The notes beneath the pieces are model-generated. The model saw nothing but the letters and a program-made list of their open reading frames with translations. It did no database searches and had not been told where the DNA came from. From Clostridia bacterium (GTDB taxonomy: Bacteria; Bacillota; Clostridia; Christensenellales; Christensenellaceae), in the NCBI GenBank assembly GCA_014805015.1, contig JAAUYQ010000061.1, forward strand, positions 1 to 37,438: a stretch of DNA of 37,438 nucleotides, given 5' to 3'. The translations under genes and the position numbers were made by a program. How positions within the stretch are numbered: the first letter of the stretch is position 1; each line of letters begins with the position of its first letter. Of this stretch, positions 1 to 35,292 are shown one piece after another.

Positions 1-99
1 AATAACCTTCGCCTGGCCGTCCCGAAGCATCCTTCTGACCTTCCCGTGCCGTTCTGTCGGCATGAGAGGCTTTCTGTCTTTGTTCAGTACATAGACCAT
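1..99 (-). CDS. iscB: IscB RNA-guided nuclease, N-terminus only (cut by window edge)
   Basis: This is the first 33 codons of a protein that continues beyond base 1. The translation begins MVYVLNKDRKPLMPTE and continues with GKVRRMLRDGQAKVI. This is the N-terminal RRXRR-type domain of IscB proteins: an MxVxVLxKxxKPLMP opening followed by a basic helix. IscB is a transposon-encoded nuclease related to the ancestor of Cas9, with a split RuvC domain and an HNH domain, guided by an omega-RNA. The HNH and RuvC parts are outside the window, so activity cannot be judged. The ATG at 97-99 is preceded by a good ribosome-binding site, AGGAGA, at about 108-113. The gene lies on the same strand as the PHP-murB-hprK operon and just downstream of it. 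Confidence 0.85.
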   Translation of the reverse strand, partial: MVYVLNKDRKPLMPTERHGKVRRMLRDGQAKVI

Positions 100-351
100 G
101 AAAGTAAGTCTCCTCGCGGAGTAGTGCAGCCGTCGCCAAGGGTATTCCGGGGTTTGGCGCATACAGCACTGTCCCTACCCATCAGGGCTGTTTAACCATA
201 TGCCGTAGAGCTTCGGACTCGGCTGTAGATCCAAAGGTACCTATTTCCCAGATAACGTAGCCAGCTCGCCGTGACTAATCACGTACCGGCTGACTGAGGC
301 TAGTCAAGCAGGGGCTTTTTCAAGCCCGCGACTTTAGTCGTGGGTTCTTGA
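100..351 (-). ncRNA. Omega-RNA (HEARO-type) of the IscB element
   Basis: About 250 bases without a reading frame, full of local inverted repeats, lie directly upstream of iscB, where IscB omega-RNAs are encoded. On the RNA strand the visible stems are CAAG-AA-CCC closing on GGG-CTTG (321-350); GGGCTT/AAGCCC (about 311-326); a perfect CGTGA-TTAG-TCACG hairpin (270-283) inside a longer GCC/GGC stem; CCCT/AGGG inside CAGC/GCTG (about 160-190); and GCCAA/TTGGC (about 133-156). The 3' end merges with the iscB ribosome-binding site, so RNA and mRNA probably overlap. In this family the guide is the 5'-most ~16 nt and comes from the flanking DNA; here that would be about 352-367. The family call rests on position and structure, not a covariance-model search. 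Confidence 0.75.
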
Positions 352-387
352 CAGAGCCCTTCTTCCTTCTTTGCTGTCAGCGTTTTA

Positions 388-1194
388 TCAGGAACCGCCG
401 TAGGCCCGGCCGAGCACGTCCCGGAACTGGCGCGGCCCCCGCCGCCGGCGCCGCTCCTCGAGCGAAGCGAGAAACGAATCGATATTCTCGCGGCTGTTCA
501 GGATCTGCGAGGGACTGATCCCGGCCTGTTCGGCCTTTTCGATGGCGGCGCGGAAATCCCCGACGCGGCCGGGGGAGTGGGCATCTGAACCAATGATGAA
601 TTTGGCGCCGGCGCGCGCAGCATCGCGGAGTTCTTCCACGGTGAATTCCGGATGCTTGGCATTGATTTCCAGCGCTTTTCCGGATGCTGCTGCCGCACGG
701 GCGAGAGCTGTCTTGTCGACGGGCAGACCATAGCCGGGATGCGACACCATCATGGCCGGGCTTTTTTCCAGGGCAGCGCTTACCGCTCTGGTGTTCTTTT
801 CCACAGCCGAATCCGAATGGGACTTCGGCATCATGAAATGAAAGAAATCAGCCGGATTGGGATAGCGCACCATGCGGTGATAACCGAAGAAAGGGAAGTC
901 AATCGCGTCCGTCCAGCCTTCCGGCAGGTCCACGCGTCCCTTTAGGGACTGCAGGTTGCCTTCGTAGCCCGAATAAACCCGGATCTGATCCGCATAGCGC
1001 TCCCGCACGTCCTCAATGTCCCGCAGATATTTTTCCATACTGCGGATCCCGTAGAACGGGTGCGCCATTCCGTGGTCGCTGATGGCGACAGCAGCAAGTC
1101 CCCGGTCGATCGCAGCCTTCACATTGTCTTCTACAGAACCGGTCCCGTGACTGTGTACTGTATGCGTATGAAAATCGCCTGCAATGTCAATCAC
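388..1194 (-). CDS. PHP-domain metal-dependent hydrolase
   Basis: A 268-residue PHP (polymerase and histidinol phosphatase) family hydrolase. Metal-binding motifs are visible: DFHTHT at residues 7-12, SDHG around 39-42, GYHRM near 105, SHPG near 150 and GSDAHSPGRVG near 205. Length and motif order fit the YcdX/histidinol-phosphatase-like group, which cleave phosphate esters using two or three metal ions. The substrate is unknown. The arginine-rich C-terminus (about residues 246-268) lies outside the PHP core. Its ATG overlaps the murB stop by 8 bases, so the two are translationally coupled. In many Clostridia a PHP gene sits between murB and rapZ-yvcK-whiA; here the next thing downstream is the IscB element. 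Confidence 0.85.
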   Translation of the reverse strand: MIDIAGDFHTHTVHSHGTGSVEDNVKAAIDRGLAAVAISDHGMAHPFYGIRSMEKYLRDIEDVRERYADQIRVYSGYEGNLQSLKGRVDLPEGWTDAIDFPFFGYHRMVRYPNPADFFHFMMPKSHSDSAVEKNTRAVSAALEKSPAMMVSHPGYGLPVDKTALARAAAASGKALEINAKHPEFTVEELRDAARAGAKFIIGSDAHSPGRVGDFRAAIEKAEQAGISPSQILNSRENIDSFLASLEERRRRRGPRQFRDVLGRAYGGS

Positions 1195-2074
1195 AGAAAT
1201 CTCCTAACAATCGTACCTCGGGCTCCAGCGTGATGCCCGTTTCCGCTTCAACGGTCCGGCGCACTTCCTGGATCAGCCGGTAGATGTCTGCGGAGCAGGC
1301 GCCCTCGTCGTTTACCACAAAGCCTGCATGTTTATGCGATACAGCGGCTCCGCCGATCCGGGCGCCCCGCAGGCCGCACGCTTCGATCAGCGGACCGGCA
1401 AAAGCACCCGGCGGGCGTTTGAACGTAGAACCAGCACTTGGCAGATCGAGCGGCTGCCGATCCCGCCGGCGCTGCATGAGCTCAGCCTGCCGCAGCCGGC
1501 TTTGAGCTGTGTCGCCCCGGGGCAGGGAGAACAGAACCGAGAGAACAGTGCCGCCCTCTGTGCTGAAACGGCTGGTGCGGTAGCCGAACTGCAGATCAGA
1601 AAGGGGCATCTCATGGATGCGTCCGCCTGGCTCGCGCCAGCGCACCGAGTGCACCACGTCTTTCATCTCGCCGCCGTAGGCGCCTGCATTCATGAAAATA
1701 GCGCCGCCAAGCGAACCAGGAATGCCGGCGGCAAATTCGAGTCCGGTGAAACCCTGCTCCAGGGCCAGTTCGAAAAGATGCCCAAGACGAATGCCGGCGT
1801 CTGCCCGCAGCAGAGGGCCTTCCGCGGCCGCACTGCCGTACGCAACGCGGATAACCAGCCCGTCATAGCCGGCATCAGCAGCCAGCAGATTTGAGCCGCG
1901 GCCAATGACGGTGTGGGGAAGACTGTTCTGCTCAGCGAAGTCGAGCAGGGCCAGAAGCTCTGCCTCGTCCGCCGGCTGAGCGAGCCACCGGGCCGGTCCG
2001 CCGGTGCGGAATGAGGTGTAGCCGGCAAGCGGTTCGTGTTCCCGGATGTCCCGGCAGCAGTCCCGGAGCGTCAT
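1187..2074 (-). CDS. murB: UDP-N-acetylenolpyruvoylglucosamine reductase MurB
   Basis: MurB reduces UDP-GlcNAc-enolpyruvate to UDP-MurNAc with NADPH and FAD, the second committed step of peptidoglycan precursor synthesis in the cytoplasm. At 295 residues it has the compact Gram-positive (type II) length. Visible motifs are VIGRGSNLL (57-64) and AAGIPGSLGGAIFMNAGAYGG (starting at 115) of the FAD domain, FGYRTSRF (163-170), PSAGSTFKRP (212-221) carrying Ser216, the expected proton donor, GGAAVSHKHAGFVVN (241-255) and LEPEVRLLG (283-291) with the catalytic Glu. Its start overlaps the hprK stop as ATGA. murA, the preceding pathway step, lies apart at 17328-18614. Confidence 0.97.
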   Translation of the reverse strand: MTLRDCCRDIREHEPLAGYTSFRTGGPARWLAQPADEAELLALLDFAEQNSLPHTVIGRGSNLLAADAGYDGLVIRVAYGSAAAEGPLLRADAGIRLGHLFELALEQGFTGLEFAAGIPGSLGGAIFMNAGAYGGEMKDVVHSVRWREPGGRIHEMPLSDLQFGYRTSRFSTEGGTVLSVLFSLPRGDTAQSRLRQAELMQRRRDRQPLDLPSAGSTFKRPPGAFAGPLIEACGLRGARIGGAAVSHKHAGFVVNDEGACSADIYRLIQEVRRTVEAETGITLEPEVRLLGDFCD

Positions 2075-12355: not shown

Positions 12356-13169
12356 TTGTCTGCTCCTTCCAGTTCACTGCGGACACCCTGCGATATTTGG
12401 CGTGTTCCTTGAATTAGGCTGGACGTTAAACCGGCAGAACCACAGCGAAATCCACTGTGAAGCTGTCAGCAGGTTTTCGAGCCGCTTGTGTCAGCGTGTC
12501 TGATGAACGACATCACAAACAGATCAGGTCGATCGGATTGATGAATTTTACTGTAGAGCGGTCTTATGAAATAGTTGCACAGCGGGCCACTTATGTCCAC
12601 TACGTAACCAGGAATCTGTGAAATGCATGGCGGATTCCTGATCAGAAAGTGACTGGAAGTATGGTCAGATTGTGATCAGAAAGTGACTGGAAATAAGGAA
12701 ATGTGATCAGATTGTGATCAGAAAGTGACTGGAAACGAGAGGGTGTGATCAGATTGTGGTCAGAGAGCAACAGTATGCATTGTTGTAGGCCCACTGAGTC
12801 ACTGGGAAGCATTTGGCGTGTCTTCAGGTCGATGCAGTTCGTCAGGAAACTTATGTCAGACACGCGCGATGCGCGGCAGATGAGCCTCCTGTAAGCTGCA
12901 TCCGGCCCACCCCGGGTCTGCACAAAGGCAAAACTTGAAGTCAACTGGGAAAAAAGGATCCGCAGTGTGACTTCGTCAGCAGACTGGATGTTGGAGAGCG
13001 CTTTGCCGGGTTACATTATAATAGGCAGTCCCGTCAATCGATCCGGCTGCCGACTGATCCAGAAATTGAGGAATCCGCGCCGATTCGCGTGGGTGGAGGC
13101 AATGCAAAGAAGGAGGACGGCAATTTCTCCCCTGCCTTACTCGGCGGGCGTCTCCTTGCCGCTATTAAT
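12356..13169. other. Long intergenic region with repeats and a weak promoter
   Basis: About 810 bases without a credible gene. It contains a perfect 8-base inverted repeat CAGGAATC/GATTCCTG (12609-12640, 16-base loop), the direct-repeat array that starts right after it, and a perfect TATAAT at 13017-13022 with a poor upstream TTGGAG at 12991-12996 (20-base spacing). A strong ribosome-binding-like AAGGAGG at 13110-13116 has no usable start codon after it. The region may be the scar of a lost mobile element; no transposase fragment is recognisable. Confidence 0.5.
12639..12770. repeat. TGATCA-based direct repeat array
   Basis: TGATCAGAAAGTGACTGG occurs three times, at 12639, 12673 and 12715, each followed by A-rich sequence. 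After a variable spacer each copy is closed by TGATCAGATTG or a one-base variant (about 12662, 12704, 12746), and a decayed start of a fourth unit (TGGTCAGAGAGC) begins at 12757. Units are 34, 42 and 42 bases long. Both sub-motifs begin with TGATCAG, which contains the palindrome TGATCA. Possible roles are protein-binding iterons or the subterminal repeats of an insertion sequence such as the IS21 type. The sequence shows only the repeats themselves. Confidence 0.85.
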
Positions 13170-35018: not shown

Positions 35019-35292
35019 ATAAATACGGCACGGAGACCGCCCGCCGGGTGTGGCGGGGGAGGAAAAGCCGGTCCTCCTTCTGTCTTAAAGCGTCTCCATC
35101 CAAATGGACTCCTCGGTTAATGATACTCAGCTGACAGATCTGTGCTGGTACCTGCTAGAGATACCCGAGCGGATTGCCGTGGAAACAGTTGGACAGCGCC
35201 GATTATCCTGCTTTACCGGCAGAACCCCTGTTTATCAATGCATTATGGACCGGTATGGGCCGGCCGACGAGACGCATACGGAGGTATACATA
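35019..35292. promoter_or_regulatory. Divergent region between deoC and the second FGGY gene
   Basis: About 270 bases that must hold both promoters. On the minus strand a GGAGGA/TCCTCC hairpin lies in the deoC leader (about 35055-35080). No -35/-10 pair stood out for either gene. The plus-strand frame is open from 35104, but the first 63 codons show no FGGY similarity, and the GTG at 35293 has a far better ribosome-binding site. Confidence 0.4.

Follow-up and report, generated by a model that had tools for sequence, protein, structure and literature searches.

An IscB element family settled at start codons, with right ends that may act as split ribosome-binding sites

The stretch of DNA analysed here (the window, 37,438 nucleotides) is the entire contig C61 of a 2.70 Mb genome that is 97.8% complete and assembled into 102 contigs. 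The left edge of the window carries, on the minus strand, the 5′ part of an IscB gene (positions 1–99; 33 codons, MVYVLNKDRKPLMPTERHGKVRRMLRDGQAKVI), the ATG of which is at + coordinate 99 with GAGGAGA ahead of it and the frame of which exits at the contig edge. Directly upstream of this frame, on the same strand, is a full-length omega-RNA (121–352). HEARO (RF02033) is the sole match above threshold in an Rfam search of the window; it lies on the minus strand at 352..121 and spans the full model (1–211) with 117 bits (gathering threshold 83; E 1e-23). With its 5′ end, GTCAAGAACCC, the omega-RNA forms the sharp left boundary of the element. The adjoining flank (353–368, minus strand; AAGGAAGAAGGGCTCT) is expected to provide the guide, for which we assume a length of 16 nt as for IscB in general, and it contains the former SD of rapZ. 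Beyond this flank lies a PHP-domain gene (388–1194, minus strand), and the contig also encodes hprK and murB.

The initial annotation had placed the RRXRR N-terminus of an IscB at this edge with an omega-RNA upstream of it, and both assignments are borne out by the HEARO match and by the Pfam RRXRR profile, which matches the 33 codons with an E of 7e-7. The residues they encode are the same as residues 1–33 of a complete 428-aa IscB on contig C35, which holds the remainder of the gene. This leftward continuation encodes RRXRR (213 bits) and HNH (32 bits), and the protein aligns in two stretches to the IscB chains 11hr and 7xht (E about 1e-46 for 7xht), in line with an RRXRR N-terminus and a split RuvC that carries an inserted HNH. 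The part of this IS200/IS605-type IscB element that lies at the window edge is its left half. As an IscB the element is ordinary, with an omega-RNA upstream of an RRXRR-HNH protein as in the known IscB/HEARO OMEGA elements (RF02033; OgeuIscB, 7xht), and with several copies, as well as RNA-only copies, within one genome. The earlier suggestion of an undescribed variant does not hold for the protein, but it does apply to the positions of the elements and the build of their right ends, which lay beyond the view of the first reading. Its assignment of the host to a high-GC Firmicute is plausible, with 57.8% GC over 212 kb and an Oscillospiraceae MAG as the only named relative found.

The genome contains 15 HEARO matches and about nine RRXRR loci. 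Copies of the element have a variable left flank that meets a sharp GTCAAG boundary, and the right flank is NTGA in nearly all of them; HEARO elements insert 5′ of NTGA (ATGA or GTGA), as here. The left flank would supply the guide of an IscB OMEGA system and the right flank its TAM. A Y1 TnpA was sought within the element and none was found there, while the sole full-length Y1 gene of the genome, on C58, belongs to another element and is paired with TnpB. The IscB element would therefore be mobilised in trans, as it has no Y1 of its own. The end hairpin of this IS605-type TnpA and TnpB pair (L039, 371–1989 of C58) resembles the right-end hairpin of the IscB elements. On contig C50 (L024, 1–3170), a transposase gene (ORF 289–2034, minus strand) splits an IscB near profile position 102–105, and a right end of the SD-less C50 type is present downstream. 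The element at hslV on C93 (L032, 6981–7494, minus strand) is internally deleted to about 510 bp, keeps only the omega-RNA and IscB residues 1–30 and 385–428, and is probably non-autonomous. An omega-RNA on C78 (L031, 7315–7567) has no IscB behind it, and it is possible that this is a stand-alone omega-RNA or a deletion derivative.

On C35, the TGA stop of the IscB gene sits inside the ATGA start of rapZ. In ten relatives rapZ lies directly after the PHP gene (five, the closest relatives checked) or after murB, and the gap is mostly 2–81 nt with an SD near the ATG. In the present genome the former rapZ SD, GAAGGAAGAAGG, lies to the left of the element, in the flank beside its sharp GTCAAG end. 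Because rapZ adjoins PHP or murB in the relatives and the SD is here on the far side, the element most likely separates the ATGA start codon of rapZ from the SD, and its guide would be expected to be read from the flank that holds this SD. The joining of C61 to C35 would rest on the conserved gene order, since the 326-bp overlap between the tip of C61 and the start of C35 has 3 clustered differences. Contig C50 likewise starts within an IscB, but it has no DNA in common with C61 and was rejected as the continuation.

The other right ends (RE) were collected with a covariance model, R1, made from 12 aligned right ends, the columns of which stop before the NTGA junction; the first of these right ends had been gathered with probes ending in ATGAA, which brings in a small ascertainment bias. 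R1 gives 53 matches at E≤0.05 in the 2.7-Mb genome, and 43 copies are scorable once four with no usable downstream sequence, one duplicate and five of the C50 type are set aside. With gene starts defined by ORFs and Pfam, 34 of the 43 abut a start codon that opens a long ORF, the distance from the end of the model being 0–3 nt in nearly all cases. Two RE-only copies with the SD AAGGAGG and the hairpin are present in the window itself, one (13108–13167, plus strand) abutting the TTGA start (13170) of an FGGY carbohydrate kinase gene and the other (35021–35081, minus strand) directly before the ATGA at which a DeoC-family aldolase gene (35018–34317) starts. Genes at the start copies include pth, rlmH, rimO, NIF3, rapZ, murG, hslV, ddl, a GatA-type amidase (gatA) and those for orotidine decarboxylase, phosphatidate cytidylyltransferase and phosphoglucomutase; ribosomal protein L9 (rplI) was added as a further start case by BLAST. 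The start codons are ATG, GTG and TTG, and the next base is nearly always A. Pfam matches were obtained for the ORFs at 30 of the 34 start copies, and the called starts are supported because the profiles in many ORFs begin at the first residues (pth, rlmH, NIF3, rapZ, ddl, murG and LMW-PTP). On C49 (L038, about 182 kb), removing the element would leave glmU and pth with an ATGA overlap; the element keeps the two genes apart, and the frame of glmU extends a few codons into it. The surprising part is that an IscB family with a distinctive right-end design has settled at start codons, and this positional pattern is well supported.

In 168 kb of the genome, gene starts account for 1.4% of all NTGA sites and for 11.7% of the intergenic and start sites taken together. 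Against the 11.7% null, 34 of 43 copies at starts has a binomial probability of 4e-24, and the recent, sequence-similar copies alone, with about 11 of 17 at starts, give 4e-7. It is highly improbable that these are ordinary IscB insertions whose start-codon pattern arose from assembly or gene calling. Such an artefact might be suspected from the fragmented assembly and from the several copies that lie at contig ends; however, most of the 34 start copies are contig-internal and stand beside genes with Pfam domains beginning near residue 1. Moreover, the IscB right ends of other Firmicutes, which have the same hairpin and NTGA junction, fall at a gene start in about 1/8 when read in the same way. 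Gene starts are also where two relatives of the rapZ-type IscB terminate in viral contigs, L181 and, less certainly, L183.

The RE runs in the order GGAGAC, linker, AAGGAGG, a hairpin of ~45 nt, about 6 nt and NTGA, the hairpin being GCGGCAA-TTCCTCC-variable stem-GTCTCC-TTGCCGC. Both sides have changed in 11 of 15 hairpin pairs, with 31 such both-side-change cells against 7.8 in shuffles and 2–6 in slid controls. The SD core and the hairpin are found in 34 of 34 start copies, a few of the SDs having been seen by eye where the script missed them. A direct placement of the SD beside the ATG by the RE was rejected, as the SD precedes the hairpin. When the hairpin is taken out, the gap between SD and start becomes 4–9 nt in most start copies; for the copies ending GAGTTGATG the true gap is 9, the script having counted the preceding TTGA. 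The nine scorable non-start copies keep the SD in six cases and have lost it in three (C2, C9:37933 and C65), and retention differs between start and non-start copies with a Fisher p of 0.007, which is a modest test as the copies are related. The same hairpin is seen without an SD in the C50-type family, and a verified start was found at 0 of its 5 copies. Ahead of the SD, the conserved GGAGAC has its complement, GTCTCC, in the 3′ internal loop of the hairpin (for example in L133, 8630–8745), and a paired change is seen at C29:8689 (GGGTAC/GTATCC). It is possible that these two segments form a pseudoknot.

The mean predicted accessibility is 0.46 for the SD, against 0.47 with a shuffled spacer, and 0.57 for the start codon, against 0.50. 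The SD is no more accessible than in the shuffled case because one strand of the hairpin, TTCCTCC, is available to it as a pairing partner, and accessibility of the SD or the start as a proof of function is unsupported by folding prediction. We infer that the RE initiates translation of the host genes, for which folding prediction alone gives no confirmation. As the SD can pair with TTCCTCC, a regulated translational switch is also possible.

Copies near the R1 model still have IscB coding sequence beside the RE, while most of the diverged copies are RE-only. For 27 diverged copies, 23 of them at starts, tblastn detected no IscB coding sequence, so that their descent is drawn from RE similarity alone. 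Intermediates that keep IscB C-terminal codons are present at rimO (C39) and rplI (C36). At hslV an older RE is followed immediately, on its 3′ side, by a young element, and one junction has therefore been used twice. The RE-only copies appear to be decayed IscB elements. It is quite unlikely that they are instead a host cis-regulatory RNA family, working as an SD/anti-SD translational switch, that IscB elements copied or exploited. A host family of this kind would account for the covarying stems, the conserved GGAGAC complementary to the GTCTCC of the hairpin, the partial pairing predicted for the SD and the lack of an adjoining IscB coding remnant at most diverged copies. However, the hairpin sequence matches that of intact IscB elements, the two intermediates link RE to IscB codons, and the genes have no pathway in common. 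The motif is also absent from the same-family genomes searched (R1 gave no match in the 17 listed) and from Rfam, where the RE-only copies yielded no convincing known RNA family even at E 1. By strict pattern, the same RE sequence is absent from a sample of 390 further genomes of the class, and none was found in viral contigs.

The share of copies at starts is higher among older than among young copies, and this bears on whether the elements aim at starts or merely survive there. It is conceivable, though unlikely, that insertion is targeted, with a transposition machinery that prefers translation starts (for example NTGAA together with leader features) and an RE purine tract that is mainly a DNA-level transposition signal. 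Recent similar copies, already enriched at starts, agree with such targeting, as do the purine tracts, such as GGAGG, seen ahead of the RE hairpin in IscB elements of other Firmicutes that lie away from gene starts. Other recent copies, however, lie inside genes (an AraC-type HTH gene at C9:41219 and an aldo/keto reductase gene on C10) or at no gene (C65 and C2), and with ~58,000 NTGA sites in the genome, by extrapolation, NTGA alone would be insufficient. Because older copies are at starts more often, as retention would have it, and two recent copies are inside genes, we infer that the enrichment comes from tolerance and retention instead of targeted insertion.

The best explanation, which we regard as reasonably probable, is insertion of IscB elements at start codons where the RE acts as a split ribosome-binding site, followed by tolerance and retention. 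The elements of this lineage would insert 5′ of NTGA, with the omega-RNA guide at rapZ read from the rapZ leader. Where this NTGA serves as a start codon, the RE would provide the gene with a split ribosome-binding site, the hairpin looping out and placing the SD 4–9 nt from the start. In the rapZ-type subfamily, the IscB frame extends right up to the right-hand edge of the element and borrows its stop codon from the host ATGA, and the resulting 4-nt stop-start overlap would suit translational coupling of IscB and the host gene. With a split site or coupling supplied by the element, start-codon insertions would therefore be tolerated; the rest of the element would then decay and the RE would remain as the leader of the gene.

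This arrangement differs from other IscB/HEARO elements in that most SD-bearing copies are at start codons, many copies are RE-only, and the RE is built as SD, hairpin, 6 nt and start codon. Nothing on start-codon insertion of IscB was found in the open-access literature searched, and the original HEARO, OMEGA and ISC papers may describe it. Short non-autonomous derivatives of IS200/IS605 elements (PATE- or MITE-like) are short pieces with subterminal hairpins, as here; unlike them, the present copies retain one end, fixed at start codons, with the SD and stem conserved. IStrons (PMC4227781) are likewise IS-type elements with an RNA device that renders insertion harmless, but they rely on a group I intron to splice themselves out, whereas here there is no splicing and the element would stand in for the ribosome-binding site. 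In phage T4 genes 38 and 25, an intervening structure cuts the SD-AUG spacing from 22 to 5 and from 27 to 11 nt (PMC3014915), and in the same manner RNA structure between SD and AUG would here reduce a spacing that is too long to one that works. The T4 cases are single phage genes tested by mutation, whereas the present one is a transposon-borne repeat before tens of unrelated chromosomal genes, with a function suggested by its build.

The chances seem evenly balanced that the end of this RNA-guided transposon family doubles as a portable ribosome-binding site, the element inserting between SD and start codon and taking over translation through either a bridging hairpin or a stop-start overlap. 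At least 34 genes of this one bacterium, including many with housekeeping roles, would then have had their leaders rewired. If true, this would explain how a transposon can enter harmlessly at the most sensitive bases of essential genes, and it would hint at why IscB elements sit at NTGA. It would also mean that transposon ends have been reused en masse as translation signals. As for the natural targets of IscB, the guides here would be read from gene leaders beside start codons.
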